From Limnospira fusiformis SAG 85.79 (lineage in GTDB: Bacteria > Cyanobacteriota > Cyanobacteriia > Cyanobacteriales > Microcoleaceae), in contig NZ_CP051185.1 in NCBI RefSeq assembly GCF_012516315.1, positions 4,469,363 through 4,533,362 of the forward strand: a DNA stretch of 64,000 nucleotides, read 5' to 3'. A program made the position numbers and the translations under genes. Under the pieces are notes generated by a model. The model had not been told where the DNA came from. It did no database searches and saw nothing but the letters and a program-made list of their open reading frames with translations. Positions 1,984-40,850 of the stretch are shown here, piece by piece; within the stretch, counting starts at the first letter, position 1, and every line of letters starts with the position of its first letter.

Positions 1984-2307
1984 TTAATCTGATTGATAAT
2001 GATAACGTGCTTGTAAAAAATAAACCTTATTTCCTGTTACTTTGTAAACTAAACGATGCTCTAAATCAATGCGTCTTGACCAAGTATCTGCGGCAATATA
2101 TTTTAGCGGTTCAGGTTTTCCTAACCCGGTAAACGGTTCACCATCAAGGATATCTGCGACTAAATCTAGGATTTTATCTCCTTTTTTGGGTTCAGTGCGA
2201 TACCACCAAGCTAAATCTGCTTTAAAATCAGGACTAAATACAGGAAAATAACCTGAAATATGATCGTTAGGGGTTTCATTGGCTTGTTTTTTCTTTTTAG
2301 GACTCAA
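1984..2307 (-). CDS. yoeB: YoeB-family mRNA-interferase toxin
   Basis: A 107-residue protein with the Txe/YoeB layout: Lys-rich start, FSPDFKADLAWW helix, KILDLVADIL helix, the GKPEPLKY strand, WSRRIDLEHRLVY with the conserved basic/Glu/His residues, and the C-terminal ARYHY tail. YoeB toxins are ribosome-dependent mRNA endonucleases held inactive by YefM. Its start overlaps the yefM end by 11 bases, the usual antitoxin-first order. The N-terminus is longer than in E. coli YoeB (about 84 residues), so an internal start is possible. Family assignment is firm. Confidence 0.88.
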   Translation of the reverse strand: MSPKKKKQANETPNDHISGYFPVFSPDFKADLAWWYRTEPKKGDKILDLVADILDGEPFTGLGKPEPLKYIAADTWSRRIDLEHRLVYKVTGNKVYFLQARYHYQSD

Positions 2308-2584
2308 TTCCTAACTCCTCTTTTAATTCATCTACCGTTTGAGGAGTTGCGGTGCTATTTTCTGACCATTCTAAAGCACGAAATAAACGTTTTGCATTTT
2401 CGGGCGATCGCAGTAAATAGACACATTCTAATAAACTCTCTAGCTCATCTTCGGCAATTAACGCCACATTTTTCTCATTGGGGCGCTTAATGACCACAAT
2501 CTGACGCTGATCACACACTTCATCCAAAATAGTGGCTAAATTCATTCTCGCTTGAGAATAAGTGGTTTCTTTGCTTAACATCAT
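2297..2584 (-). CDS. yefM: YefM/Phd-family antitoxin
   Basis: A 95-residue protein starting MMLSKETTYSQARMNLATIL, the Phd/YefM DNA-binding fold (TYSQAR...LDEVCDQRQIVVIKRPNEKNVALIAEDELESLLE), followed by an acidic C-terminal tail (TVDELKEELGIES) that would neutralise YoeB. Such antitoxins repress their own operon cooperatively with the toxin. Two start codons are adjacent (2584 and 2581). Operon with yoeB downstream. Confidence 0.88.
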   Translation of the reverse strand: MMLSKETTYSQARMNLATILDEVCDQRQIVVIKRPNEKNVALIAEDELESLLECVYLLRSPENAKRLFRALEWSENSTATPQTVDELKEELGIES

Positions 2585-2734
2585 TTTTGCTAGATAACTT
2601 CTACAACATTATTGTACAATACTAAGGGGTTCTTGATCCACTAATTCTGGTAAACTTCGATACTGATTCAGCCCGGCCATAAAATCACAACTGTCCCATC
2701 TAACCCCCTGTCAAAATCACTCCTTTTTCAATTT

Positions 2735-2947
2735 ATGATGACCCTTACAGAACTACTCCCAGCCATTAAACAACTTTCACCCCTTGACAAAATTAAACTG
2801 ATTCGTTTGTTGGCTGAAGAAATGGAATCACGAGAAAAAATTGCCCCTTTAGAACCCGGTAAAGCCTATAATTTACCAACTCCTTACAATAGTTTTGGTG
2901 CGGGGGCGATTCTGATGCAGGTCATAGAATCCAGTGATGAGGCTTAA
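2735..2947 (+). CDS. Small helical partner of aspartic-protease-like protein
   Basis: A 70-residue protein (MMTLTELLPAIKQLSPLDKI...LIRLLAEEMESREK) with two amphipathic helices and a flexible C-terminus. It resembles the small cyanobacterial antitoxin-like proteins that sit in front of PIN or protease genes. The stop overlaps the start of the next gene (TAATG at 2945-2949), so they are translationally coupled. Function unknown; a regulatory or antitoxin role for its neighbour is inferred from arrangement. Confidence 0.55.
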   Translation: MMTLTELLPAIKQLSPLDKIKLIRLLAEEMESREKIAPLEPGKAYNLPTPYNSFGAGAILMQVIESSDEA

Positions 2948-3360
2948 TGACAATGCGATTTTTTTACTCTACCACTGATTCATCTCAAAATGAATTTGAT
3001 AGCCTGCCGCAAATCCCCATGATTATTCGGCGAGAGGGTCATACGGTTGAAGCCATTGGATTAGTTGATAGTGGTGCAACGGTAAACGTTATGCAATTAG
3101 ATATGGGACAACAATTAGGGGCTGTCTGGGAAGACAACAAGGCAATCATTCAACTGACTGGTAATTTAGGAAAGCAACCCGCGATACCTTTGTTGGCAAT
3201 GGTTTAAATTGGCGATATTCCACCGATTCAGTTGGTGTTTGCTTGGACAAAAAACCTCGATACATCTCTGATTTTAGGACAAACAAACTTTTTTATGGAA
3301 TTTGAGGTGTGTTTTTACCGTTCCCGGATGGAATTTGAGGTTAAACCTAAGTTTCTATAA
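2947..3360 (+). pseudogene. Retropepsin-like aspartic protease, in-frame stop
   Basis: Encodes MIIRREGHTVEAIGLVDSGATVNVM: the D-S-G-A motif is the catalytic signature of single-domain (retroviral-type) aspartic proteases. A TAA at 3205-3207 interrupts the frame after 86 residues. Beyond it the same frame stays open for 50 codons to the next TAA (3358-3360) and reads IGDIPPIQLVFAWTKNLDT and ILGQTNFFMEFEV, the expected C-terminal half of the fold. One C-to-T change (CAA to TAA) would explain the break. Compare the intact gene at 11004-11369. Confidence 0.65.
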
Positions 3361-3405
3361 ACGGTAGGGCGTGCATAATTCCTATCTGAAACCGGAAGGT
3401 AAACT

Positions 3406-3643
3406 ATGACTAAACAAGTTCCCGAACCCAATGCCGAGTTACTATCCGCCGATGATGTTCATCAAGATGTGATGACCCTAACAACGGCATTAGAACAGCG
3501 CCATGCTGAACGCCAAGCCTATCAGATTTTATCCCGACCCGATATCCGTAATTTACGCTCATCGCATCCTAGCCGGGGGAATTTGTAGTACAGAAGAGGA
3601 AGCCAGAGAACGCGCCCTGAGCATTTTAATCGCTGAAGGTTGA
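3406..3643 (+). pseudogene. Small helical protein gene, frameshifted (copy 2)
   Basis: Near-identical to 2-239. The first frame encodes 60 residues ending at 3586-3588; the continuing frame encodes ICSTEEEARERALSILIAEG to the TGA at 3641-3643. The same shift in both copies shows the frameshift predates the duplication, or that the two pieces really are separate. It lies directly before hicB. Confidence 0.45.
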
Positions 3644-3678
3644 GAAAGCGAGTTTCAAATAGCCATTAGAGACAAACC

Positions 3679-3879
3679 ATGAAAATTAAAGCAATCATTT
3701 GGCACGAAAAAGATGTTTGGTGCGGTTCAGTCCCCGCCCTTCCCGGTTGCCACACCTGGGCATCCAGTGAGGAAGAATTGTTAGTTATGCTCGCAGATGC
3801 CGTTCAAGGTGGGCTCGAAGTTGCCAGCGAAGAACCAGAAATCACCCCAGAAAAAAAACTGATTGAATTGTCTTTATGA
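3679..3879 (+). CDS. hicB: HicB-like antitoxin (UPF0150), orphan
   Basis: A 66-residue protein MKIKAIIWHEKDVWCGSVPALPGCHTWASSEEELL...: the short HicB fold with the PALPGCHTWASS signature and a C-terminal LIELSL. HicB antitoxins neutralise the HicA double-stranded-RNA-binding toxin. Here hicA is cut after MKSI (ATG at 3876) by fusion to the WD40-linked repeat, leaving HicB without its toxin. An intact hicBA pair lies at 7702-8108 and a dead copy at 275. Confidence 0.8.
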   Translation: MKIKAIIWHEKDVWCGSVPALPGCHTWASSEEELLVMLADAVQGGLEVASEEPEITPEKKLIELSL

Positions 3880-3975
3880 AGTCCATTAGGGTTAGGGATA
3901 ATTGAGAGATTTGAGGGTTGATGGTAGCTCCTCAATTCTAGCAAATCTGCATCAAGGGCGATCGCACCGGGTGAA

Positions 3976-4242
3976 ATGGCGATCGCACTACGGGAAGCGA
4001 TGGGAGGACAGAATAACGGGGTAGAAGCAGTAGCGATCGCCCTGGACGGTAAATTTGCTATTTCCAGTTCATGGGATAACACTTTAAAAGTATGGAACTT
4101 AGAGACAGGTACAGAAGTAGCTATGTTTCTTGGAGAAGCGGAGATGAGTTCCTGCGCCATTGCACCGGATGGGGTGACGGTGGTGGCGGGGGATGAAGGG
4201 GGGCGCGTGTATTTTCTGCGGTTGGAGGGGTTGAGGGGTTGA
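3976..4242 (+). pseudogene. WD40 fragment (copy 2)
   Basis: Reads 88 residues with about one and a half WD40 blades (VEAVAIALDGKFAISSSWDNTLKVWNLETGTEV in pieces, then CAIAPDGVTVVAGDEGGRVYFLRLEGLRG). N- and C-terminal edges match the 570-1214 protein, so internal blades have been lost. Too short to fold as a propeller; a remnant. Confidence 0.6.
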
Positions 4243-4316
4243 GAAATGGGGTTGCTTAACCCGATTGGGGTGAGGCGGCAAAGGTTAGGGCAGCCACCGG
4301 GTTTCTTTCCCTGCAT
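4241..4316 (+). repeat. AAACCGGGTTTC hairpin-repeat family member
   Basis: Member of a 65-75-bp family whose ends are versions of GAAACCGGGTTTC flanking a GGTGAGGATGCAAAGATTG-like core. Other members: 7404-7446 (part), 7566-7632, 8123-8190, 8927-8992, and a fragment at 6263-6320. The inverted ends would fold into a hairpin; likely a miniature palindromic repeat. Confidence 0.5.
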
Positions 4317-4496
4317 CCGAATCACCAACCCGACCGCTATAATGGCAAAAAGAAACCTCTGGAAAACAGGATGCCAATCACCTTAAACAAAGGACAAGAA
4401 AAATTATCACCCAGTAGGGGCGAAAAATTTTTCGCCCCCAAACCCATCAATTCCATAACCTGATTTCTCAATTAATCTGTATTGAAGTGAGCCACC

Positions 4497-4748
4497 ATGA
4501 GTTTATCCCTTACGCCAGAAACTGAACAACGCATTGCCCATACCCTCAATCAGGGACAATACCGTTCCGCTGATGAAGTGATATTAGCCGCCTTAGAACT
4601 CCTAGAGAAACGAGAACAATATTTAGCCGAACTCCGCCAGCAAATCGAAATCGGGTCAAGCCAAATTCAACAAGGAAAAGTTACCGATGGAGAACTGGTG
4701 TTTAGTCGTCTGCTCAACGGTTTACAGCAACAGATAGAGGATTCCTAA
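4497..4748 (+). CDS. parD: ParD-family antitoxin
   Basis: An 83-residue protein MSLSLTPETEQRIAHTLNQGQYRSADEVILAALELLEKREQYLAELRQQI (in pieces): the ribbon-helix-helix ParD/CopG fold, with the QGQYRSADEV signature and a helical C-terminal toxin-binding tail. It would repress its own promoter and neutralise ParE. Its TAA overlaps the ParE ATG by one base (4748). Confidence 0.9.
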   Translation: MSLSLTPETEQRIAHTLNQGQYRSADEVILAALELLEKREQYLAELRQQIEIGSSQIQQGKVTDGELVFSRLLNGLQQQIEDS

Positions 4749-5038
4749 TGGGGACTTATTCATTCTCTGATGCTGCTCTAGCTGACTTGGAGACCATTTC
4801 TGTATCCCTATCGGAAATAAACCCAGACTTAGCTATTAGATTTTTTGAAAAAGTCCGGGATAAATGCCGTCAGTTTGCTCAATTTCCCAATATGGGCAAA
4901 AACTACAGTCACATCAAGACAAATCTCCGAGGTTTGATTGTGGAAAATCACATCATATTTTACTTCCCTCGACCTGACGGTATCGATATTGTTCGCATCA
5001 TTAATGGTTATCGAGACCTAGAATCATTGAATATCTGA
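4748..5038 (+). CDS. parE: ParE/RelE-superfamily toxin
   Basis: A 96-residue protein (FSDAALADLETISVSLSEI, FFEKVRDKCRQFAQFPNMGK, LRGLIVENHIIFYFPRPDGIDIVRIINGYRDLE) with the ParE order helix-helix-four strands and the conserved FPNMG and RIINGYRDLE segments. ParE toxins poison DNA gyrase; RelE relatives cleave mRNA. Directly coupled to ParD. No obvious damage; probably an active module. Confidence 0.88.
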   Translation: MGTYSFSDAALADLETISVSLSEINPDLAIRFFEKVRDKCRQFAQFPNMGKNYSHIKTNLRGLIVENHIIFYFPRPDGIDIVRIINGYRDLESLNI

Positions 5039-5355
5039 AAATCTACAACCGGGTTTCTCCGATTAGCTTGGAGAAAAACCGGCAACTCCCAGCCACCCGG
5101 GTTCTGGGCTGTGGTGGTCGGTTGGCGATCGCCCTGTTGGGGTTGGGGATGGCGGATAAAGGTTTCATCGTCAATACAGCCATAGTATTGCGCCAGGGAA
5201 TTATCCTCGTTTCCAGAGGTGCTTTCTACTGTGGGTGTTGCTTGTGGAAAAGGCGGCGGAGTTGGCTGTAAAGATTCTACCAAGAGTTTGAGCAATACCC
5301 AGCGATCGCCTGGAGGTAAATCTAAGACTTGTTTTGGCAATTGTTGGAAGGTCAT
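5008..5355 (-). CDS. Cyanobacterial antitoxin-like small protein
   Basis: A 115-residue protein MTFQQLPKQVLDLPPGDRWVLLKLLVESLQ then a Pro-rich linker and LAQYYGCIDDETFIRHPQP. The N-terminal LPxxDRWxLLxxLxESLQ helices and GCIDDETFxR block are typical of small cyanobacterial antitoxin-like proteins; the same GCIDDETFIRH block remains as a relic at 37266-37310. It converges on parE and overlaps its 3' end by 31 bases. No toxin partner follows, so it may be an orphan, and the last ~50 residues may be non-native. Confidence 0.5.
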   Translation of the reverse strand: MTFQQLPKQVLDLPPGDRWVLLKLLVESLQPTPPPFPQATPTVESTSGNEDNSLAQYYGCIDDETFIRHPQPQQGDRQPTTTAQNPGGWELPVFLQANRRNPVVDFQIFNDSRSR

Positions 5356-9541: not shown

Positions 9542-9600
9542 TTGACAACACCCTCCAGAGGCGAGTTATCCTGCAATTGCGGTCTAGTAAATAGTTAGCC
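9542..9600 (+). promoter_or_regulatory. attI: attI-like site with putative cassette promoter
   Basis: TTGACA at 9542-9547, then CGAGTTATCC, and the conserved tail CTAGTAAATAGTT. The four platforms are nearly identical up to AGTT and diverge immediately afterwards, as expected if cassettes were joined at G^TT (here 9594/9595). The TTGACA and a weak -10-like AGTTAT 16 bp later point into the cassettes and may be the cassette promoter. Confidence 0.6.
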
Positions 9601-13274: not shown

Positions 13275-14471
13275 ATGAAGCGAAGAAGTTTCTGCCAATA
13301 TGTTGCAATGGGGTCAGCGTCTTTTGCTGGGATTGTGGGCAGAGATTTGACCTTTGCCATGAGTTCTGCGTCTTCTCAAGTCAAGTCACGCCACAAATGG
13401 GTCGTTTTGTACTGGATGCCTTATGACAATGACCTTGCACGTTTTGGCGAGCCAATCGTTGAAATGTTAACCAATGGTACACAAAACTCTGAAATAGCCG
13501 TAGTTGTTCAATCAGACTATTGGGGTGATCCCCAAATGCGCCGTCGCCAGCTTATTAATGGCACTATCACTGAAGTTGATGTATCAGGAGAAGATAGTAG
13601 CGATGCATCTGCTTTTACAGCGTATCTTGATTGGGCAAATCAGACTTTTGAAGCAGAGCATTGGGCAGTCATTGTTATGGGTCACGGAGGAAAGATTAAT
13701 GAAGTTAGTCCCGACGATCACGGAATAAATCGTCAAACCCGCACATGGATGAGAGTTGACCAGTTTGCAGATGCAGTTAGCACCTTCAATCAATCCGTGC
13801 ATGGGCGGGTTGAACTGCTCTTCTTTCAAAACTGTAATAAAGCCACGCTAGAAGTCGTATACGAAGCGAGGAATTGTGCTAAGTACACTCTTGCCTCCCA
13901 GCTTACTCTTGGTGATCCTAATTACTACTACGAAGGCTTTCTAAATCACCTTGCATCGTCGGCTGATGGGCGTGAAGCAGCCATAGCTATCATGGATTCT
14001 GAAAGGGCTGATATGTTTCACACGCTAACTTTAGTGGACAATCAAGCGGTTGAGCGCATTCCAGAGAAGCTCTCAAGATTGCTTCAGCCGATTCTTAACA
14101 ATCGTTTACTAGCAATTAGCCAATCAGACCTCCCAACCTATCACTACTTTGGTGATCAACATTGTGATGTGCTTGTTCTACTTGGTTATCTCTCAAGGGT
14201 TAGTAATCAGGAGCAAAATGAGTTTGCTGAGTTTGCTGAGTTCCTAAGTTCATCAGTTATTGCATCTTACAAAACAGGAGGAGAACTTTATGGCAGTCGT
14301 CCCTATAGCAACACTAATTCAGAGGAGTTGTGTGGTTTAAGTTTATATCTTCCAGAAACTAGACAAGATATTTCTCGCTATAGTTCTCTTGCCTTATATC
14401 AAGGAGTTGATTTAGTAAGTTTATACAGTAAGTTTATACAGAGGGATAGTTACCACTTGATAAGCGAGTGA
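13275..14471 (+). CDS. Clostripain-type (C11) cysteine peptidase, exported; cassette-borne
   Basis: A 398-residue protein. The N-terminus MKRRSFCQYVAMGSASFAGI has a twin-arginine-like pair and a hydrophobic stretch, suggesting export. The body has the clan CD peptidase layout: KWVVLYWMPYDNDLA strand, catalytic His137 in VMGHGGK, catalytic Cys187 in LFFQNCNKATLE (the clostripain FxxCxM position). C11 peptidases cleave after basic residues and often self-activate. It is the single gene of a cassette bounded by attI 13172 and attC 14486. HIP1 octamers are absent, unlike the surroundings. Target unknown; defence, cell-death or peptide maturation are all possible. Confidence 0.85.
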   Translation: MKRRSFCQYVAMGSASFAGIVGRDLTFAMSSASSQVKSRHKWVVLYWMPYDNDLARFGEPIVEMLTNGTQNSEIAVVVQSDYWGDPQMRRRQLINGTITEVDVSGEDSSDASAFTAYLDWANQTFEAEHWAVIVMGHGGKINEVSPDDHGINRQTRTWMRVDQFADAVSTFNQSVHGRVELLFFQNCNKATLEVVYEARNCAKYTLASQLTLGDPNYYYEGFLNHLASSADGREAAIAIMDSERADMFHTLTLVDNQAVERIPEKLSRLLQPILNNRLLAISQSDLPTYHYFGDQHCDVLVLLGYLSRVSNQEQNEFAEFAEFLSSSVIASYKTGGELYGSRPYSNTNSEELCGLSLYLPETRQDISRYSSLALYQGVDLVSLYSKFIQRDSYHLISE

Positions 14472-14485
14472 AGTATGGTAGAGCG

Positions 14486-14582
14486 ATACAACAATTCTGG
14501 TGCAGCGGACTAACAAAGTTGGTTGGTGTTGCGGCAGAGGTTATTGACAGCCGCTGACCAGAACCGTTAAATCCTATCAAGG
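14486..14582 (+). repeat. attC: attC site 3
   Basis: R'' ATACAAC (14486-14492), inner boxes GGTGCAGCGGACT and AGCCGCTGACC, R' GTTAAAT (14576-14582). The cassette starts TTGTAC at 13173, so its own R' GTTGTAC complements R'' at six of seven positions. Confidence 0.85.
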
Positions 14583-16737: not shown

Positions 16738-17718
16738 TCACTCACCCAGTTCATCCAAAGGACTGCGAACCCCTCGGCCACCGCGATTAAGAACGTGGGT
16801 GTAAATCCTGGTGGTTTTCACATCTTTGTGGCCTAACAGTTCTTGCACTGTGCGAATGTCATAGCCATCCTCAAGCAAGTGGGTGGCAAAGCTATGGCGG
16901 AGGGTGTGGCAACTCCCGTGTTTGGTGATACTGGCTTCTTGTTTGGCTTGCTTCATCCTGCGTTGAATGCGATCTTCAGAGAGATGATGACGGCGAACGG
17001 CTCCGGAACGGGGGTCACGAGAACGATGAGCGGCTGGAAATACATACTGCCAGCCCCATTCTCGTTGGGCATTGGGATATTTGCGGGCGAGGGCATCGGG
17101 TAGCTCAACTTCGCCGTACCCGTCGAGGAGTTCGCGATCGTGGGCGAGTTTGGTGCGGGCAATGTGTTGTTGAAGGGGGAGGATGAGCGATCGGGGCAAC
17201 ATGGTGATGCGATCCTTTTTGCCTTTGCTGTTACGGATGAGGATTTGGCCATGGTCAAAGTCCACGTCGTTAACTCGCAGTCGTAGGCATTCAGTCAACC
17301 GCATCCCAGTCCCGTAGAGTAGGCGGATGACTAAGGCCTCCGGGTCATCCCCAACCTTAGCCAGGATTGCCAGGACTTCCGGGCGCGAGAACACAGTGGG
17401 CAACCGTTTGGGGTGCTGGGGCCGCTCAATGCCATCAAGGTCTGGCAAGGGAGGGTCAAGAACTTGGCGGTAGAGAAAGAGCAAGGCACTGAGGGCAACG
17501 TTTTGGGTGGAGGCAGCCATTTTTTTATCGACCGCGAGGTGGGATAGGTAGGCGCGGACTTCTGGTACGCCCATCTCTCTGGGGTGGCGTTTTTGGTGAA
17601 AGAGGATGAAGTCTTGGATGTAATAGAGATAGGACTTCTCGGTTTTGCGACTGAGATGCCGGAAGCGGATGGCTTGGCGCACGCGCTCAAGAAGTTTGGG
17701 CGATTGAGGCACTTCCAT
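16738..17718 (-). CDS. intI: Integron integrase (IntI), full length
   Basis: A 326-residue tyrosine recombinase. Residues 1-100 are the SAM-like N-terminal arm-binding domain ([19 protein letters not shown]). The catalytic residues are present: Arg in [17 protein letters not shown], Lys in [25 protein letters not shown], and the final [19 protein letters not shown] with Tyr. Between them is the extra segment specific to IntI ([20 protein letters not shown], then [14 protein letters not shown]). IntI recombines attC with attI. It points left, with palindrome, promoter and attI at its 5' side, the standard integron layout. The copy at 21783 is nearly identical. Confidence 0.95.
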
Positions 17719-17808: not shown

Positions 17809-17867
17809 TTGACAACATCCTCCAGGGGTGAGTTATCCTGTAATTGCGGTCTAATAAATAGTTGTAC
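17809..17867 (+). promoter_or_regulatory. attI: attI-like site with putative cassette promoter
   Basis: TTGACA at 17809-17814, GAGTTATCC, then CTAATAAATAGTT; crossover G^TT at 17861/17862. It feeds the ORF-less cassette and then the NotI-type restriction cassette. Confidence 0.65.
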
Positions 17868-18002
17868 TGCCTGCGTAGTACGGGACTTGACATACTATGC
17901 TACCATCTAAGAAGCGCAGTCACCACAACACTTCGTTGGAGCCGACAAACACCGTTAGCCCGACGACGCTGGCTAAGCGTCGTTCGCGGCTCAACTCCGC
18001 CG
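17862..18002 (+). other. ORF-less integron cassette
   Basis: A 141-bp cassette between the attI crossover (17861/17862) and the attC crossover (18002/18003). Apart from its attC it has only about 60 bp, with a TTGACATACTATGCTACCAT stretch that could act as a promoter pointing into the next cassette. It encodes no recognisable protein. ORF-less cassettes can carry promoters or small RNAs. Confidence 0.6.
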
Positions 18003-18008
18003 TTAGCT
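17923..18008 (+). repeat. attC: attC site 4
   Basis: R'' CCACAAC (17923-17929), inner boxes CGTTGGAGCCGAC and GCGGCTCAACTCCG, R' GTTAGCT (18002-18008). The inner boxes and spacers closely resemble classical mobile-integron attC sites. R'' complements its cassette's R' (GTTGTAC) at five of seven positions. Confidence 0.88.
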
Positions 18009-18228
18009 AGACCGGTAGCGAAGGGTAAACCCCCTCCCCCTGATTTATGAATGCCCCGTAGATGGGACTACAAGTGCTGTTGCTGAGTGGTTGCAACTTT
18101 GGGGTTGAGTGTAGCTTGACTTTGATGCTGCCCTAGACTAATACATTAGCTCTATCTACTGTATAATCCCCTAAAGGTTTAAAGACCTGTAGAAACACCA
18201 GTACTGCTTGAAAGTTCAAGGCTCAAAA

Positions 18229-19356
18229 ATGCGAATAGAGGATGATGCTCCATCACAACCACCAGAGAACCTTCGATTACCACTATTTGGTGATTGTGTC
18301 ATAGCCAATCAAGACTTTCAAAAGAAATTTGAAAATTATCAAGTCAATGAAAGCATCGCCCCTTTGCTTATGTTGGGAGATGTTCTTGAAGTTATGAAAG
18401 AGCTACCCAGTGATTCTTTCGATTGTTGTATGACTAGTCCACCCTATTGGGGAAAAAGAGAATATGACGCAGGCGGAATCGGATTAGAGCCGGATTTCAA
18501 TACTTATATAGATAACTTATGCTTAGTTTTCTCTGAGGTTCATAGAGTTCTGAAGAAAACAGGCTCTTTTTGGCTCAATATTGGTGATTCTTACTACAAC
18601 AAAAACTTACTCGGCTTACCGTGGCGTATTGCCTTGAACTTGACAGATAATCAAGGCTGGATTCTAAGGAATAGCGTTATTTGGAACAAAGTAAAAGGAG
18701 GACCAGACAATTCAAAGGATAGATTGAGAAATATACATGAAAATGTGTTTCACTTCGTGAAGTCATCAAGATATTACTACGATATAGATTCTATTCGTTC
18801 TTCACCCAGAAAGACGAAAGTAGTGAATGGTTCTGTTGTTTCTGCGACGGGTGTCACTGGGGTTCGCTATAAACGAAAAATCGAGCTATCCACTGACCTA
18901 TCTGAAAATGAAAAACACAATGCTTATCAGGCATTGGAAGAAATTCTCCGTCAAGTTTCTGATGGCATCATTTCTGATTTCAGGATGATTATTCGAGGAC
19001 AACAAAGAACCACACATTCTGATTCTGAGAAAGTTTCTGGTCGAGCCAAAGAACTCAAGGAAAAAGGATTTTACTTTCTGAAATATCATCCTAAAGGATC
19101 TAAACCAAGTGATGTTTGGGAAATTCTTCCAGAAGATGCTCAAAAACGAGAACTTCACTTTGCGCCCTATCCCGTCGATCTTTGTAAAATCCCAATATCT
19201 TCCACGTGTCCACCTAACGGGATTATTCTAGATCCTTTTTGTGGTACTGGAACTACGATGCTTGTAGCCCAGCTACTTGGCAGAAAGTCCTGCGGGATAG
19301 ATCTTTCCCCTCAGTACTTAGAGATAGCGAAAGAAAGAAGCGAAACAATTTTATGA
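18229..19356 (+). CDS. Site-specific DNA methyltransferase (beta class, probably N4-cytosine)
   Basis: From the ATG at 18229 (a TTG at 18208 would add seven residues) the protein has motif IV TSPPYWGKREY near residue 70, the SPPYW form typical of N4-cytosine methylases, and the AdoMet motif DPFCGTGTTMLVAQ near the C-terminus. IV-before-I is the beta arrangement. Between them lies the target-recognition region. Its stop overlaps the restriction gene start (ATGA at 19353-19356). It protects DNA from the partner NotI-type nuclease. It lies in one cassette with that gene. Confidence 0.9.
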   Translation: MRIEDDAPSQPPENLRLPLFGDCVIANQDFQKKFENYQVNESIAPLLMLGDVLEVMKELPSDSFDCCMTSPPYWGKREYDAGGIGLEPDFNTYIDNLCLVFSEVHRVLKKTGSFWLNIGDSYYNKNLLGLPWRIALNLTDNQGWILRNSVIWNKVKGGPDNSKDRLRNIHENVFHFVKSSRYYYDIDSIRSSPRKTKVVNGSVVSATGVTGVRYKRKIELSTDLSENEKHNAYQALEEILRQVSDGIISDFRMIIRGQQRTTHSDSEKVSGRAKELKEKGFYFLKYHPKGSKPSDVWEILPEDAQKRELHFAPYPVDLCKIPISSTCPPNGIILDPFCGTGTTMLVAQLLGRKSCGIDLSPQYLEIAKERSETIL

Positions 19357-20207
19357 GCAAAATAATTGAGATTTTTGGATATTCAAGAAATCAACCCGAA
19401 CATATAGATTTGGCCAGTCTTATTCAAGGGCAACATTGTCCATATTTAAAAAGACGTTGTATAAAAGTCCGCAAAAGCCAACCTGATATATCTATAGGCA
19501 CCTGCTCAGTAGTCTATGGCAAAAATTCTATTCCGGTCATTATTTGTCCTCATAGGTTACTAGAGAGAAAACAGATCTTTATAGACTGCTTACACTTGCT
19601 CACCAACCATGAACCTGGAAATGAATTGCATGTTGTTTCAGAAATTTCAATTCCAGGAGGCAATGTAGATTATTTTCTCGTATCTGCCTTAAATAATAAG
19701 GTGAAGGATTTCGTTGGCATTGAACTCCAAACACTGGATACAACTGGCACTGTTTGGCCGGAACGCCAACGGTTACTTGAAGAACTTGGAGTTCCTACAG
19801 AAGATAACCAAAGTCAATCTAAAAAGACCTTCGGTATGAACTGGAAAATGACAGCAAAAACAATCCTTATACAGCTACATCATAAGATTGAGACTTTTGA
19901 GCACATCAATAAAAAGCTTGTTCTTGTAATTCAAGATTGTTTTCTAGATTATATACAGCGTGAATTTAGCTTTTCACATGTTAGTCATCAAGCTCAATTA
20001 GGAGATTCTATGCATATTCATGCATATCAGATGACGGAGCAACCAGACCATTCTTTCAGGTTAGCGTTGGGTTGTCGTTTAAGTACAGATGTGGAGGGTA
20101 TTGCTAGATGCCTTGGTCTTCAAGCAGAGGCGAATATTGAACTTGAGCAAATTGTTAAAGCCTTAGAGTCGAAGTTGTCGGTGAACACCCTTTTTACTCC
20201 TATATAA
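19353..20207 (+). CDS. NotI-family type II restriction endonuclease
   Basis: A 284-residue protein starting MSKIIEIFGYSRNQP. Four cysteines at about 29, 36, 51 and 65 (HCPYLKRRCIKVRK, IGTCSVVYG, IICPHRLLER) match the iron-binding Cys4 site of NotI. A PD-ExQ-type active site follows (GGNVDYFLV ... VGIELQTLDTTGTVWP). NotI itself cuts GCGGCCGC; this enzyme's site is not predictable from sequence. The start at 19353 overlaps the methylase stop, so the two are co-translated. No HIP1 octamer in the cassette, consistent with outside origin. Confidence 0.88.
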   Translation: MSKIIEIFGYSRNQPEHIDLASLIQGQHCPYLKRRCIKVRKSQPDISIGTCSVVYGKNSIPVIICPHRLLERKQIFIDCLHLLTNHEPGNELHVVSEISIPGGNVDYFLVSALNNKVKDFVGIELQTLDTTGTVWPERQRLLEELGVPTEDNQSQSKKTFGMNWKMTAKTILIQLHHKIETFEHINKKLVLVIQDCFLDYIQREFSFSHVSHQAQLGDSMHIHAYQMTEQPDHSFRLALGCRLSTDVEGIARCLGLQAEANIELEQIVKALESKLSVNTLFTPI

Positions 20208-20217
20208 CCTCTTGACT

Positions 20218-20303
20218 AGCTAACACTGCGTTGGTGCGGACGGAACAGAGGTTATCGATGGGAGTCCGATATTATCTGCCGCCGCACAACTTCACCGTTA
20301 AAT
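20218..20303 (+). repeat. attC: attC site 5
   Basis: R'' AGCTAAC (20218-20224) and R' GTTAAAT (20297-20303), inner boxes GGTGCGGACGG and CCGCCGCACAACTTC. R'' is the exact complement of GTTAGCT at 18002, defining the restriction-modification cassette as 18003-20297. Confidence 0.9.
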
Positions 20304-20501
20304 TTTATCAAGGTGGGAATGTGATGTTTTTCGAGACAATGCCTACTTTTTAACAACATTGGTAGGATCAGGGAGGTCTACCCCCTTTCCAAGAGTGCGA
20401 TCGCACTATGCTCAATCTACCTGAGAGCCGCGATCATCGATAGAATGGGGATAAAGTTCTGGGTAGAGTGGCAATGACTGAGTTGCTGGAGCGTGCGATT
20501 T
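20298..20501 (+). repeat. Common leader repeat (copy 5)
   Basis: Same element as 10307 and 11476, starting TTAAATTTTATCAAGG and carrying the stop-interrupted small frame and the antitoxin-start relic. Confidence 0.75.
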
Positions 20502-23204: not shown

Positions 23205-24518
23205 ATGGGCATTGAAATGAGTGACTCTAGCAAAAAGAATGGAAAGCTTATATCTTTACGTTCTCTTTCACTTTTGTTTTCATCAGCATCTCTTTCAGAG
23301 GCTTTTATTCCTCAGTCTCTTTTAGTTGGCGAACAAAAGCACTGGCAATGCCCTAAGCCAACTTTTTCAGGTGCTTCAATTGAGGATCTTCAGATTGCGT
23401 TTCGAGATTCTATTGCTAGAGCGGTGGGTGACAACCAAAAGGTTGCAGTTGCTGTCTCTGGAGGTATAGATAGCTGCGCTGTTCTCAAAGAAGTGTCCAA
23501 ATTGTGTAGTAACGAGAAACAATGTTTTGCGATAGTTGGTAACTTGCGTGATGATGCTAATGTCGACTGTTTAGACGTTGCATCTCAACTAATCAAGAAC
23601 CTCAACATAAAATGTACTATAGTGTCGGTTGAGGAACACGAAGCTTCTAGGGAAGTGATGTGGCATCCAAGTGGACCTAATCTCTGCGCAATACCCCTCA
23701 TGACGAGGGCAATAGCTGAACGGGCGATCGATTGTGGTGCAGAAATTTTACTAACTGGTGAAGGAGCAGATGGTCTTTTCGGTGCGCCTAAATACCTTCT
23801 TCCAATCACGCTGGGTAAACTGAAGCTTCGCAAATCTGGAACTCTTTTTCGTGATATTTATTCTGTTGGGTGGAAACCCCTTGCCTTAGAACTTCTCTCA
23901 GGTATCAGTCTTCTTCTACCAAAGAAGTTACAAACTCAAATCTATTGGTCTACTAACTTACCAGAATCGTGTTCTGTTTACGTCCCTGAAATCATAAATC
24001 CCAAACTACACCCTTACATTCAAGATTGGACATCTCGATGGATTGCAGAGCGAGTTAACTTTCACTTGGGAAATACCTCCAATTGGGCAGCAGCAGATGC
24101 AATAGATGCAATTTTTCCTGATGAACCTTATCCACCTTCGGGTAGTATCGCTGAATACAATCCTTTTCAAGATGCTCATGTCTTTGAGGTGGCAATGAGT
24201 CTTCCTTTGGAAGAAAGATATAACGAATCTTTTCAAAAAGCCTATCACCGTCAAAAAGCTATGGTAGTTGAACTTCTTGGTAGAGAGGCGGTATCTATTT
24301 TACCTCCTGGGAAGCAGTTTTTTCGTAAAGCATTTAATAGAATGGAAGATAGTCGACCTGTAGATTCTACAATCTGCGAAAAGGTTGGTCTTTTTGTTAC
24401 TAAGCCAAATATCCCTTATGATGAAAGCTGTGCATCTATACTTATCCGTCATCATATACGTGCAGTGGAGACATGGCTTAAGGGCGCTATTGACAGGGGA
24501 TACTCTGTGGTAGGGTGA
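23205..24518 (+). CDS. Asparagine-synthetase-like amide ligase lacking the glutaminase domain
   Basis: A 437-residue protein. The ATP-pyrophosphatase loop SGGIDS (85-90) and the second AsnB signature GEGADGLFG (185-193) are present, with a C-terminal EYNPFQDAHVFEVAMSLP matching the AsnB substrate region. AsnB normally starts with a Cys-dependent glutaminase domain; this protein has only about 60 other residues before the synthetase domain. It must use free ammonia or another amine. Stand-alone AsnB-type domains occur as amide-forming enzymes in peptide biosynthesis (lasso-peptide macrolactam synthetases). Next to a polyamine synthase, an amine-to-carboxylate ligation is an attractive inference. 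Second start at 23217. Confidence 0.82.
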   Translation: MGIEMSDSSKKNGKLISLRSLSLLFSSASLSEAFIPQSLLVGEQKHWQCPKPTFSGASIEDLQIAFRDSIARAVGDNQKVAVAVSGGIDSCAVLKEVSKLCSNEKQCFAIVGNLRDDANVDCLDVASQLIKNLNIKCTIVSVEEHEASREVMWHPSGPNLCAIPLMTRAIAERAIDCGAEILLTGEGADGLFGAPKYLLPITLGKLKLRKSGTLFRDIYSVGWKPLALELLSGISLLLPKKLQTQIYWSTNLPESCSVYVPEIINPKLHPYIQDWTSRWIAERVNFHLGNTSNWAAADAIDAIFPDEPYPPSGSIAEYNPFQDAHVFEVAMSLPLEERYNESFQKAYHRQKAMVVELLGREAVSILPPGKQFFRKAFNRMEDSRPVDSTICEKVGLFVTKPNIPYDESCASILIRHHIRAVETWLKGAIDRGYSVVG

Positions 24519-24564
24519 GTTTTACCTTATGTTAGAGAAGATGTAATTAAAAAATGACCAAAAA

Positions 24565-26295
24565 ATGTCAAACTACTTAATTAAAGCAAGGCTTGAGTTG
24601 TCATCGAGATGGGGAACTGAGTTTAAGCGTATTCGTGCCCTCATATCATGCCTTACTGAAAGGCAGTGGTGTTCAGTTGAGCAACTCATTCAGGAATCTG
24701 CTTTATCCCACAAAACTGTGACTAGTCTGTTACGAGACCTAGAGCCTTGGATTGATAAAAATGGGAACTATATACGCTTTAAAGAGCAATTCACAGATGA
24801 TGCACGATCTGTTTTTGATTGCGAGTCGTTGTTTGTGAAAAAAATTCAAGATCCTTACGATGCCTTAATCATTGAAAATCAGACTCTACTCGACAGCATT
24901 ACGGATATTGTTCGGGAAATGCCACTGTCTGACTTGAATCTTGATCATGTATCGGCAACTCCTGAAACCTGTATTAAACGTGCGTTGTTCTTATCCTACA
25001 CATATGAGATTGCTGATAAAAGAATTTTGTGCCTTGGTGATCATGATCTTACATCAATAGCACTTTCACTTATCTATCCAGATTTGGACATAACCGTAGT
25101 TGATATTGATGAGCGTATACTTGACTATATCTATAATGTTTCTCAGCAGCATGGATGGTCTATAAAAACTGCCTTTGCTGACTTTCGGGTTGAACTTCCA
25201 AGAAGTTGTTTAGCGAGCTTTGATCTGGTTTTTACTGATCCGCCATATACTTCATCTGGAATCGATTGTTTCCTAAGACGTGGACTTGCGGCCCTCAAGC
25301 AAGATAAGTTTTCACGTCTGCTGTTTTGCTATGGATTTGGTGAACAGCACCCTGCAATAGGTCTTAAAGTGCAATCTGTTCTGCCTCAACTTAGGTTAGT
25401 ATTAGAGGCTTTACTACCTAAATTTAATCGATATTTTGGTGCTCAAGCAATAGGTAGTAGTAGTGATTTATATATCTGCCGACCTACCAAAGAGACGTGG
25501 ATGACTATCACTAAGTTGCCTAACTCAAGTTCACAAATTTATACACATGGAAGTAGTTCTGAGGAAACGACTTCTGCAGTACTGCCAAAAGAAATTTTAG
25601 AAGAAACGTTAAAGATTAGCTTTGACTTAAAACTTACAGATATTACTCTTGTTGGTGAAGGATTGAAAAGCTTACCTTTTGATTTAAATTCTTATCAAGT
25701 AGAATTCTTATCTCTAGGTAAATATTTTCAAAGTATGTACTTTAAAAAAGGCAAACCTCCTTTTACAAGAGAACCTCATTCTAACTTAGTTATTGTAAGT
25801 CTTTATCCAAGCTATTGGTCAAGTTTGATTCGCTTTTTTCTTATCTCTGTCGCGGAGCGCCTTGTAATTGTCGGTAAATATTCTGATTTTCATGAAACTA
25901 CACTTGCGAACCAATTTCTAAGAAAGATAGTAGAGAGTAAATATGAATGTAACATTCACAAGATGAATGCTAAGGGTCACAAAAACTTGAGTATTTTAGT
26001 TGCAGATAAGATAGAATTATCTAAAACAGATGCATTAAGCTATATCTTACGATATGTCATCGATCATCGATATGCAAAATTAAGAAATTCTTGGAGAGAA
26101 GCTTTAATATCTTGGTTTAGTCTTAAAAATATTGAAGTGACAAAGAATCAAGCTCGACAAATAGTAGATAAGTATTTATCTTCTCAACAATGCCCAGGCT
26201 ATCTATCGGAGTTTCCAATGTTTTTGCTTACAACTCTTATTGCCAATATTAAAGCGTCCATTTCTGAGTTATATTCAACACACATTGTAGACTAG
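24565..26295 (+). CDS. BpsA-like (DUF43) aminopropyltransferase with extra C-terminal domain
   Basis: A 576-residue protein. Residues 15-75 resemble a winged helix. Residues 150-300 match branched-chain polyamine synthase (N4-bis-aminopropylspermidine synthase): ILCLGDHDLTSIALSL, TVVDIDERILDYIY, and FTDPPYTSSGIDCFLRRGL. BpsA transfers aminopropyl groups from decarboxylated AdoMet to polyamines. Standard BpsA ends near 350 residues; about 230 additional residues follow that I do not recognise. It is third in the cassette operon and ends 15 bases before attC. A polyamine or peptide aminopropylation role is inferred from family and neighbours. AT-rich, no HIP1. Confidence 0.8.
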   Translation: MSNYLIKARLELSSRWGTEFKRIRALISCLTERQWCSVEQLIQESALSHKTVTSLLRDLEPWIDKNGNYIRFKEQFTDDARSVFDCESLFVKKIQDPYDALIIENQTLLDSITDIVREMPLSDLNLDHVSATPETCIKRALFLSYTYEIADKRILCLGDHDLTSIALSLIYPDLDITVVDIDERILDYIYNVSQQHGWSIKTAFADFRVELPRSCLASFDLVFTDPPYTSSGIDCFLRRGLAALKQDKFSRLLFCYGFGEQHPAIGLKVQSVLPQLRLVLEALLPKFNRYFGAQAIGSSSDLYICRPTKETWMTITKLPNSSSQIYTHGSSSEETTSAVLPKEILEETLKISFDLKLTDITLVGEGLKSLPFDLNSYQVEFLSLGKYFQSMYFKKGKPPFTREPHSNLVIVSLYPSYWSSLIRFFLISVAERLVIVGKYSDFHETTLANQFLRKIVESKYECNIHKMNAKGHKNLSILVADKIELSKTDALSYILRYVIDHRYAKLRNSWREALISWFSLKNIEVTKNQARQIVDKYLSSQQCPGYLSEFPMFLLTTLIANIKASISELYSTHIVD

Positions 26296-26310: not shown

Positions 26311-26396
26311 GGCTAACACAACGTTGAAGCTGACCCAGCAAGAGTAATCTTTAAAAGTCAAAGTTTGACTGAGGCGGCTCAACTAGACCGTTAAAT
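26311..26396 (+). repeat. attC: attC site 6
   Basis: R'' GGCTAAC (26311-26317), inner boxes GTTGAAGCTGACC and GGCGGCTCAACT, R' GTTAAAT (26390-26396). The cassette starts TTATCC at 22906; R' GTTATCC and R'' complement at six of seven positions, bounding a single three-gene cassette of about 3.5 kb. Confidence 0.85.
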
Positions 26397-29757: not shown

Positions 29758-29843
29758 GGCTAACAAATCGATGGAGCCGACCGTATCAAGATTATCTGTG
29801 GGAAACCGAGGTTATCTGCGGCGGCTCATCTCAACGGTTAGAC
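29758..29843 (+). repeat. attC: attC site 7
   Basis: R'' GGCTAAC (29758-29764), inner boxes GATGGAGCCGACCG and GCGGCTCATCTC, R' GTTAGAC (29837-29843). Confidence 0.87.
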
Positions 29844-31936: not shown

Positions 31937-34900
31937 ATGTCAGGGGAATCAGCCAATTTTGAATTTTTGCGATCGCATGACCTTCAGTTAGTACGTCTTG
32001 GGGCTTTAGCTGAACGCTATTTCCGAGATGACCCCGGTACTTGCCTGATTAAGTTACGGCAGTTTGCTGAAGTGCTGGCACAATTGACCGCCGCCAAAAC
32101 AGGTCAGTTTGTTTCTACCGAGGAAGCCCAGGCAGATTTATTGAAACGGTTGAAGTTTCAACGGGTGATATCGCCCGAAGTCGCTGATCTGTTCCATCAG
32201 ATCAGAATTGCAGGCAATAGGGCAACCCATGAATATATTGGCGATCATAGGTCAGCCCTGACCATGTTAAAGATGGCCAGACAACTGGCTATCTGGTTTC
32301 ATCGAACATTCAGTGGCAATACCAGCTTTAGGGCGGGTGCTTTTGTGCCGCCGCCGAACCCAACAGATGTAACAGCCGAACTGGCAGCCGAACTTGAACG
32401 CTTGCGGATTGCCCTTGAAGAGACCCGCAGCGAGGCAGAAAGGGCAAGGCTGGCAGCCGAAGAACAGGCTAGGGCGGTGCTGAGTGCCGAGGAGAAAGCC
32501 CGTCAGGAAGCTGAAAACCGTTCATTATGGGAGCAGCTTGCGGTCGAGTCGGAACAGGCAAGATCAGCCCTTGAAGTTCAGTTAGCCACCCTTCAGGCAG
32601 CATCGAAGCAGTTACCCGCCCAACAGACCGCCGCTATTATTTCTCTGGCTGATCGGGCGGCGACCGTGATTGATCTCGATGAAGATGAAACACGGGCAAT
32701 TATTGATCAGCAATTGCAGGATGCAGGCTGGTTAGCTGATACCCAAAACTTGCGTCATGACAAGGGCGTAAGACCCGTTAAGGGGAAGAATATGGCGATC
32801 GCCGAATGGCCAACGGCTAACGGTATTGCTGACTATGCCCTGTTTGTGGGTACAAGCTGTATCGGCTTCATTGAAGCCAAGCGCAGGCGCAAGAATGTTT
32901 CTGCTGCCATTGATCAGGCCGAGCGATACGCCAGAGGGTTTCAGGCGGGTGATGGTTTTGCTCCTATTGATGGTAGCCCATGGGGTGAGTTCCAGTTTCC
33001 TTTTGTGTTTGCCACCAATGGGCGACCTTATCTCAAACAGATTGAGACCGAAAGCGGGATCTGGTTTCGGGATGTGCGCCAGCCCACCAATCGCCGCCGT
33101 GCCTTAGTAGGCTGGTACACCCCGGAAGGCTTGGCAGCGCTGCTAGGGATGGATCGTGAAACTGCCCATGCTCACCTGAAAACCCAGCCCTATCGGTTTG
33201 GTTTTCCGTTGCGTCCTTATCAACAACGAGCGATCGCAGCGGTGGAAATGGCCCTAGAGTCCGATCGCCGTGAGATGTTGGTGGCAATGGCCACCGGAAC
33301 GGGTAAGACAAAACTGGCGATCGCCCTGCTCTACCGACTCTTAACCGCCAAACGGTTTCGCCGGGTTTGTTTTGTCGTCGATCGCAGTGCTTTAGGCAGT
33401 CAGGCAGCCGGTGAGTTTCGGACGACCAAGGTTGTCACCGCTAAAGCCTTTGGGGATATTTTCGGGTTACAGGGGTTAGGAGATATTACCCCAGAGTCAG
33501 AAACCAAGGTGCATATCTGCACCATTCAGGGGCTAGTGAAGCGGGTGCTGTATGCCAGCGAACCCCGAACAGTTCCCCCCATTGACCAATATGATCTGCT
33601 GTTGATTGATGAATGTCACCGAGGCTATCTGCTGGATCGGGAAATGTCCGATGCCGAGCTAAGTTTTCGCAGTCAGGATGATTATATCTCTAAGTATCGT
33701 CGAGTTTTAGAGCATTTTGATGCGGTCAAGATCGGATTGACAGCCACGCCAGCCCTGCATACCGTGCAGATTTTTGGTGAACCCGTGTTTACCTACGCTT
33801 ACCGGGAGGCTGTGATCGATGGGTTTCTGATTGACCATGAACCACCCGTGCAGATTACCACTACCTTGAGTCGGAGTGGGATTCAGTTTCGGGCGGGGGA
33901 AGCACTCGATGCGATCTACTCTCCCACCGGGCATCTACAGCGCATTTACGCCCCAGACGATCTCAATTTCGAGGTAGAGGAGTTCAATAAGAAGGTGATC
34001 ACGATTCCTTTCAATAAGGCAGTTGCCAAGGAACTAGCCAAACATATCGATCCGAACTTGCCCGGTAAGACCTTGATTTTTGCCGTGAATGATGCCCATG
34101 CGGATATTGTGGTCGATCAGGTGAAGCAGGCAATGGCTGATTATTACGGCGAGATCGAGGATGCCGCCGTTCGCAAGATTACAGGCAGTGTGGACAAGGT
34201 AGGGGATTTGATCCGTTCTTACCGTAATGATGCCATGCCTCAGATCGCGGTCACGGTTGACCTCTTGACCACCGGCATTGATGTTCCGAAGATTACCAAT
34301 CTGGTGTTTTTGCGGCGGGTGAATAGCCGGATTCTTTATGAGCAGATGTTGGGACGGGCAACCCGCCAATGCCCTGAGATTGATAAAGAAACGTTCCGTA
34401 TTTTTGATGCGGTTGATTTATATGCCAAGTTACAGACTTTGACCGAGATGAAACCCGTTGTGGTCAATCCTGCCATCAGCCTTGAGCAGTTATTTGATGA
34501 GTTTGCTCAGGTTACCGAGGCGGATCACCGTGCTGTCATCCGGGATCAGATCGTGGTTAAACTGCGGCGGAAGTTGGGGCGGTTGGCGGATCAAGCCAGA
34601 GATCGCTATGAGGCCGATATCGGGGAAACCCCAGAAGAGACGCTCGAGCGGTTCAGGACTTCCCCGCTGCCCGAGTTGGCGGGCTGGGTGAGCGATCGCC
34701 CCGGTATCGGGCGGATTTTGGATTGGAATCCAGAAGGGGGTGAGGGGAGCTTGCTGCCGATTTCTCATCACCCTGATGAGGTTGTTGCCGTGACCCGTGG
34801 TTATGGATCGGGGCAAAAACCTGATGATTTTCTCGATAGCTTTACCGCCTATGTGCGGGATAACGTCAATCAGTTGGCTGCTTTAACCGTGGTATTGCAA

Positions 34901-35323
34901 AGGCCCAGGGAGCTAACCCGCGCCCAGCTTCGTGAATTGCGCCTAGAGCTTGATAAGATGGGCTATTCAGAAACCAATTTGCGCCAAGCGTGGCAGGAAG
35001 CCAAGAATGAGGATATTGCCGCCTCGATCATTGACTTTATCCGTCAAGCGGCGCTGGGCGATCCGCTGATTCCCTATGATGAGCGGGTCAAAGCAGCCAT
35101 GAAACGCATCCTGGCAAAACGAGCCTGGACAGACCCGCAGCGCAAATGGTTAAAGCGGATTGGGGAACAGGTCGCCCGTGAGTTTATTGTTGATCGCGCT
35201 GCCCTGGATCAGGAGCCTTTCGGAAATGACGGGGGGTTTAATCGCCTCAACCGTATTTTTGAGGGACAACTGGAAGCTATTTTAGGAGATATAAACGAGG
35301 AGTTATGGCGAAGGACAGCTTGA
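31937..35323 (+). CDS. hsdR: Type I restriction enzyme, R (motor/nuclease) subunit
   Basis: A 1128-residue protein. Residues 1-110 (SANFEFLRSHDLQLVRLGAL) are a DUF4145-type N-terminal domain, followed by a Glu/Ala-rich coiled coil (about 150-220). The nuclease core has ADYALFV and FIEAKRRRK (D...ExK) near 300-315. The helicase has Walker A VAMATGTGKTKLAI (about 450), DECHRGYLL (about 557), LTATPA, and the ATRQCPEID C-terminal motor segment. HsdR translocates and cleaves unmethylated DNA with HsdM and HsdS. hsdM follows after the tandem repeat array. Confidence 0.95.
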   Translation: MSGESANFEFLRSHDLQLVRLGALAERYFRDDPGTCLIKLRQFAEVLAQLTAAKTGQFVSTEEAQADLLKRLKFQRVISPEVADLFHQIRIAGNRATHEYIGDHRSALTMLKMARQLAIWFHRTFSGNTSFRAGAFVPPPNPTDVTAELAAELERLRIALEETRSEAERARLAAEEQARAVLSAEEKARQEAENRSLWEQLAVESEQARSALEVQLATLQAASKQLPAQQTAAIISLADRAATVIDLDEDETRAIIDQQLQDAGWLADTQNLRHDKGVRPVKGKNMAIAEWPTANGIADYALFVGTSCIGFIEAKRRRKNVSAAIDQAERYARGFQAGDGFAPIDGSPWGEFQFPFVFATNGRPYLKQIETESGIWFRDVRQPTNRRRALVGWYTPEGLAALLGMDRETAHAHLKTQPYRFGFPLRPYQQRAIAAVEMALESDRREMLVAMATGTGKTKLAIALLYRLLTAKRFRRVCFVVDRSALGSQAAGEFRTTKVVTAKAFGDIFGLQGLGDITPESETKVHICTIQGLVKRVLYASEPRTVPPIDQYDLLLIDECHRGYLLDREMSDAELSFRSQDDYISKYRRVLEHFDAVKIGLTATPALHTVQIFGEPVFTYAYREAVIDGFLIDHEPPVQITTTLSRSGIQFRAGEALDAIYSPTGHLQRIYAPDDLNFEVEEFNKKVITIPFNKAVAKELAKHIDPNLPGKTLIFAVNDAHADIVVDQVKQAMADYYGEIEDAAVRKITGSVDKVGDLIRSYRNDAMPQIAVTVDLLTTGIDVPKITNLVFLRRVNSRILYEQMLGRATRQCPEIDKETFRIFDAVDLYAKLQTLTEMKPVVVNPAISLEQLFDEFAQVTEADHRAVIRDQIVVKLRRKLGRLADQARDRYEADIGETPEETLERFRTSPLPELAGWVSDRPGIGRILDWNPEGGEGSLLPISHHPDEVVAVTRGYGSGQKPDDFLDSFTAYVRDNVNQLAALTVVLQRPRELTRAQLRELRLELDKMGYSETNLRQAWQEAKNEDIAASIIDFIRQAALGDPLIPYDERVKAAMKRILAKRAWTDPQRKWLKRIGEQVAREFIVDRAALDQEPFGNDGGFNRLNRIFEGQLEAILGDINEELWRRTA

Positions 35324-40763: not shown

Positions 40764-40850
40764 AGCTAACAACCCCTTGGCAGCGGACGCTTGAGATATC
40801 TTGATGGGGATCCAAAGGTTATCTGTCGCCGCTTATCTTGGTGGTTGGGT
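40764..40850 (+). repeat. attC: attC site 9
   Basis: R'' AGCTAAC (40764-40770), inner boxes GGCAGCGGACGC and CGCCGCTTATC, R' GTTGGGT (40844-40850). It interrupts a PIN-toxin start (MTAILDTSFLLSCC) at about 40711. The upstream stretch 40620-40710 is the C-terminal part of the antitoxin seen complete at 41342. A lone R''-like GGCTAACACTGC at 40611 marks the deletion junction. Confidence 0.8.

Follow-up and report, generated by a model that had tools for sequence, protein, structure and literature searches.

A restriction-modification pair with a NotI-fold nuclease as a single integron cassette in Limnospira fusiformis, with CGTACG as predicted target

What do the two genes beside an integron integrase in the chromosome of Limnospira fusiformis SAG 85.79 encode, do they form one mobile unit, and which DNA sequence would their products recognize? 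The window, i.e. the whole stretch of 64,000 nucleotides analysed here, corresponds to positions 4469363–4533362 of a genome assembled as a single contig of 6.42 Mb. On one side of the two genes lies an intact integron integrase gene (16738–17718, minus strand), on the other a repeated stretch that contains a PIN-domain toxin gene. We regard it as quite probable that they constitute a type II restriction-modification (R-M) system and together make up a single integron cassette in the Arthrospira (Limnospira) chromosome, with CGTACG as predicted target. This reading builds on the computed cassette boundaries, both protein families, the NotI fold of the nuclease, the linkage of the two genes, purifying selection and the avoidance of CGTACG in carriers.

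The left boundary of the unit is an R'' core, GTTAGCT, at 18002–18008 (plus strand, cut G^TT). Its attC (20218–20303, minus strand) extends from R' AGCTAAC at 20218–20224 to the next R'', GTTAAAT, at 20297–20303. GTTAGCT and AGCTAAC are complementary at 7/7 positions, as claimed in an earlier note on this DNA, and when the flanks of the cassette were shuffled 500 times, with bases permuted within 30-nt blocks, such a 7/7 closure plus an additional CGTT appeared in 1.4% of the trials. The three core positions therefore define an excisable unit of 18003–20297, exactly the extent that had been proposed. A stricter cassette scan, which required the textbook core GTTRRRY, missed the window cassette because GTTAGCT does not fit RRRY. 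The bottom strand of the attC folds into an interrupted hairpin (−18.3 kcal/mol, z −4.10; equalled by none of 200 shuffles), the top strand folds less well (z −2.39), and the remaining attC sites folded gave z values of −0.2 to −2.5. A covariance model (R1) was trained on seven attC sites, and these account for its matches in a Calothrix metagenome-assembled genome (MAG; L008), in another cyanobacterium (G237, locus L056) and at five positions of the window. Non-training matches in the window were strong at 29758 (E 1e-16) and weaker at 40764, 41667, 17923 and 31336. Genome-wide, the model gave 11 matches at E ≤0.001, eight of them in the window and two not more than 12 kb before it. One of the weak attC-like sites (17923–18007, minus strand, E 5.4e-4) ends in the first core of the cassette and a gene-less mini-cassette may therefore precede the R-M cassette. 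By closure, attC and adjacent integrase, the R-M unit is an integron gene cassette.

The integrase gene encodes 326 amino acids and scores 453.7 bits against TIGR02249 (cut-off 265). Between this gene and the cassette, at 17857–17863 on the plus strand, lies the motif GGTCTAATAAATAGTT, which also precedes the first cassette at 9590 and occurs in variant forms in Arthrospira PCC 9108 (L010) and in L056; by its motif and recurrence it is assigned as the putative attI insertion point. The adjacent integrase would excise the cassette by recombination at G^TT of the attC and attI-like sites, whereby both genes would move as one unit. On the minus strand between 9278 and 28932, the window contains five complete or remnant integrase sequences: two are intact, a third is interrupted by two in-frame stops, and the other two are short fragments. 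Behind each come a cassette of its own and, downstream, a nearly identical repeat that contains PIN-domain toxin genes. As far as this arrangement can be read from the sequence, the region is a tandem array of integron units. Other cargo includes two genes, asparagine-synthase-like (PF00733) and BpsA_C-like (PF01861), at 23205–26295 ahead of an attC at 26311, and a clostripain-family peptidase (PF03415) at 13275–14471 ahead of an attC at 14486. A type I restriction subunit R (31937–35323; PADLOC REase_I, E 3e-250) adjoins the array. Hypothetically, the R-M cassette could stabilise the array by addiction.

The first gene of the cassette (18229–19356, plus strand) encodes an amino DNA methyltransferase of 375 amino acids (PF01555, E 8.1e-49); an upstream TTG at 18208 would extend it by 7 residues. 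It contains TSPPYW at residues 69–74, where the earlier note had read this motif, as well as DPFCGTGTT, and TSPPY is invariant in all 18 aligned methylases. We take this motif order with TSPPYW to be that of the beta class. TSPPYW is associated with m4C, and m4C as the methylase product would be a guess from this motif. Elsewhere, a 65% methylase relative (L085, G129) has no nuclease match nearby and is possibly an orphan.

The second gene (19353–20207, plus strand) overlaps the first by ATGA and encodes a nuclease of 284 amino acids. Its match to PF12183 (NotI) is above the cut-off of 22 bits (26.1 bits, E 6.5e-6; 26.2 bits when refound from the DNA). Residues C29, C36, C51, C65, P101, D106, E124 and Q126 are invariant in 37/37 nuclease sequences; this alignment includes 33 of the 46 related loci plus L054, L055 and L056, and lacks 13 partial, frameshifted or otherwise excluded loci. 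Searched against PDB sequences, the single nuclease sequence gave no NotI match, and the alignment profile found NotI (3bvq_A) as its sole match, which was weak (E 0.42) but ran colinear through the cysteine region as well as through the EIQTMD core. Thus the four cysteines and the PD-ExQ core align with NotI, as the earlier note had demanded of a NotI-like enzyme. With the sequence searches weak or empty, the relation was settled by a fold search. The AlphaFold2 model of the nuclease, built with 35 sequences (mean pLDDT 88.5, pTM 0.88), matched crystal NotI with a Foldseek E of 5.1e-8 and with a VIA Z of 18.8 (rmsd 3.3, 241 aligned residues); the next entry had a Z of 6.5. By score, conserved residues and modelled fold the nuclease is thus a member of the NotI family.

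NotI (PDB 3bvq, 3c25; PF12183) shares with the cassette nuclease the fold, the four-cysteine site and the D..ExQ core, and its four-base 5' ends are likewise expected of the cassette enzyme. It differs in length (383 versus 284 residues), in sequence (19–20% identity in the structural alignment) and in target, which is GCGGCCGC for NotI and the predicted CGTACG for the cassette nuclease. The latter is probably not a NotI isoschizomer. The Cys4 site would bind a metal, and the R-M pair is presumably active. Among the related loci, two cyanobacterial ones (L002, L003) have nucleases closer to the NotI profile (>200 bits) and an adjoining methylase which by eye contains DPPY, not TSPPYW. We found no paper that combines 'NotI family' with 'restriction endonuclease'.

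The pair is a widespread one. According to their titles, the 46 related loci belong to Cyanobacteria, Proteobacteria, Bacteroidales, Chloroflexi, Bacillota and others, and the methylase adjoins the nuclease in 44 of them, the exceptions being one locus whose contig begins at the nuclease and one in which the gene is partial. Together with the ATGA overlap in the window, this shows methylase and endonuclease encoded together, as in type II R-M systems. The proposal of a complete NotI-family R-M system in one cassette is hence supported by family, fold, catalytic residues, linkage and closure. Near-complete nuclease relatives of about 60% identity occur on six plasmid records (two of Klebsiella, two of Acinetobacter, one each of Enterobacter and Serratia). 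In the pairs on pBspH9 of Acinetobacter sp. NEB 394 and on the Klebsiella, Enterobacter and Serratia plasmids, the order of the two genes is as in the cassette. Unlike the cassette, the pBspH9-type pairs are plasmid-borne, and model R1 finds no attC in L054 and L055; the literature found, available in part, did not give their recognition specificity. Of 50,697 phage records, one had a match, with 30% identity.

In Arthrospira PCC 9108, homology starts at 18002, which is the cassette boundary, after an attI-like TAATTAATAGTT there. Homology to the Calothrix MAG extends just beyond the GTTAAAT core and the attC is common to both; the Calothrix locus has a clear attC, yet it fails the 7/7 test, and this attC folds poorly (z −0.5). 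The cyanobacterium G237 carries a 64%-identical pair (L056) with its own closure, GTTATGC/GCATAAC. A shared boundary, a shared attC and an independent closure are what cassette movement would be expected to leave in these sequences. Of 39 pairs tested, 4 combine a 7/7 closure with an additional core, namely those of the window, L056, L042 and L017; for most relatives there is no indication of an integron location. The L017 closure may be due to chance. In L042, a Bacteroidales MAG, a 7/7 closure (GTTAGGC/GCCTAAC) encloses the R-M pair at 2398–4500, and the attC-like repeats there have a different shape; the attC model had no match in L017 or L042. A tblastn search with the integrase gave no match in the flanks of L001–L053 (E 1e-5) or in L042, L056, L084 and L085 (E 1e-3). 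R-M systems as cassettes are known from Vibrio chromosomal integrons, where a complete R-M system forms a cassette as it does here, with other enzymes and in other hosts.

For prediction of the target we assumed a single target across the branch, because the methylase alignment shows conservation over most of its length, and searched for a site avoided by carriers. All 64 palindromic hexamers were ranked by avoidance, these being the only motifs ranked in full. In samples of the first four carriers CGTACG was low throughout and was the lowest of 64 in Pseudomonas marginalis; by mean ratio it ranked fifth, behind CCGCGG, GTCGAC, TTCGAA and ACGCGT. Observed/expected counts were 6/59.6 in P. marginalis and 4/43.0 in Duganella (rank 1 in both). 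Over whole genomes, P. marginalis has 79 CGTACG sites compared with 325–1140 in 20 other Pseudomonas, and the Duganella carrier has 47 compared with 265–1673 in 20 congeners. The reversed control pattern lay within the range of the relatives in both cases (P. marginalis 2668 versus 2062–3297; Duganella 3978 versus 2828–5203). The 40 congeners contain no close nuclease relative, only one weak match of 79 residues. Pooled non-carriers (10 of the 20 per genus) gave a ratio of 0.57 and rank 8 in Pseudomonas, and 0.64 and rank 13 in Duganella.

The analysis was extended to 12 carriers beyond the first four, comprising ten named genomes, which were selected with their counts still unseen, plus G237 and G039; PCC 9108 (broken copy) and G129 (methylase match only) were left out. 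Five with low counts were sampled first, and the other five named genomes, G237 and G039 later; all are included. CGTACG had the lowest combined rank (individual ranks 1, 2, 1, 9, 1, 35, 13, 5, 8, 3, 15 and 5), with a p of 2e-5 compared with 0.0058 for the next palindrome. This p assumes that palindromes are exchangeable; the assumption holds only approximately, because non-carriers also show mild avoidance of CGTACG. No avoidance signal was seen in the 12 carriers for GGTACC, TGTACA, CGGCCG, CGATCG or TCATGA. In total, 14 of the 46 loci are represented by a CGTACG count of their genome. Avoidance is lacking in Spirosoma (2023 sites genome-wide, 46/62.2, rank 35) and slight in Ramlibacter (4/8.5 in only 19.7 kb, rank 13), the pattern to be expected after a recent gain of the system; some other carriers, too, show little of it. 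Within cyanobacteria the test has little power, because most palindromes are avoided there and carriers do not stand out (7–10 CGTACG sites in G000, G039 and G237; 2–59 in eight family members without a nuclease match). In any given genome, another R-M system could also be behind the avoidance of CGTACG. The host itself, in a 444 kb sample, strongly avoids many palindromes (GGCC 0.28, TTCGAA 2/107.6, GCTAGC 2/125.5, CAGCTG 6/147.1), which points to many R-M systems, past or present.

Could the cassette encode an enzyme with a different target? An integron-borne NotI- or EagI-type system that cuts GCGGCCGC or CGGCCG would agree with the fold and family of the nuclease. It would also agree with the low CGGCCG counts in two of the first four carriers (Paraprochloron 0/10.5 and C. 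jejuense 0/1.7, both rank 4) and with rank 6 in Bacterium D16-50. In the other 11 of the 12 carriers, however, CGGCCG ranks 24th–60th (over all 12, combined p 0.83, pooled 2302/2749), the host genome contains 23 NotI octamers, and the nuclease has low sequence similarity to NotI itself. We therefore consider this alternative very unlikely; neither the NotI octamer nor, more generally, the GC-rich octamer suggested before is supported by the counts. Slightly easier to entertain, but still unlikely, is an R-M cassette directed against some other sequence, such as TCATGA, the site associated with the BspHI strain, or a degenerate or non-palindromic motif. The 60%-identical pair on pBspH9 comes from the strain behind the BspH names, and the full ranking covered palindromic hexamers only. 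Against it, TCATGA was unavoided in any set (combined p 0.95 in the 12 carriers; ranks 40, 41, 63 and 52 in the first four) and was rejected. HIP1 (GCGATCGC), which had also been put forward for comparison, was dropped as well, with a host count at Markov expectation (1120 versus 1145 expected in the 444 kb sample, both strands).

A decaying or silent cassette without present function is likewise improbable. It would fit the frameshifting deletions in both genes of the PCC 9108 copy, the single sister copy analysed, from which it follows that the system can be lost, the truncated or interrupted integrase copies nearby, and the lack of a consensus promoter on the plus strand in 17850–20420, as searched with a sigma-70 consensus that may miss cyanobacterial promoters. 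On the other hand, both frames are intact in the window, and differences from the Calothrix pair at codon positions 1/2/3 number 31/15/117 in the methylase and 17/12/74 in the nuclease. This excess at third positions indicates that both genes have been under purifying selection. In the preferred reading, a functional R-M cassette directed against CGTACG, the methylase would mark this palindrome and the NotI-fold endonuclease would cut it, so that unmarked incoming DNA would be cut and defence would be the likely benefit of the cassette.

CGTACG is the site of SplI, named for Spirulina platensis, and BsiWI, Pfl23II and PspLI are isoschizomers at this site. A paper from 1986 reportedly described a new endonuclease from Spirulina platensis; the literature found, available in part, does not state the specificity of SplI. 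Host group and predicted target agree between SplI and the cassette, and SplI is the likely named counterpart of the cassette system; the two proteins may be identical. Except for the two central pairs, CGTACG has the same sequence as CGGCCG, which forms the core of the NotI site. NotI and the CGTACG enzyme both leave four-base 5' ends. These two points make a NotI-fold enzyme for CGTACG plausible in structure. We give about even odds to the wider proposal that the cassette or a close allele encodes SplI, that the NotI fold was retuned from CGGCCG-type to CGTACG-type recognition via the two central pairs, and that integrons spread the pair among cyanobacteria. The host group has a further R-M system, AplI of Arthrospira platensis NIES-39, whose target is CTGCAG and not CGTACG, according to the part of the source available (PMC5741684). 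No title on integrons of Arthrospira was among those found.

R-M systems in integrons are known; this one is set apart by its NotI-fold nuclease, its place in a cyanobacterial integron and its predicted six-base target. The analysis predicts the target of a widespread NotI-fold branch and offers, with NotI, a natural pair for the study of how a rare-cutting fold changes central base recognition. It also provides an example, from cyanobacteria, of an R-M system that travels whole, as one integron cassette, and it names one possible barrier to the transformation of spirulina.
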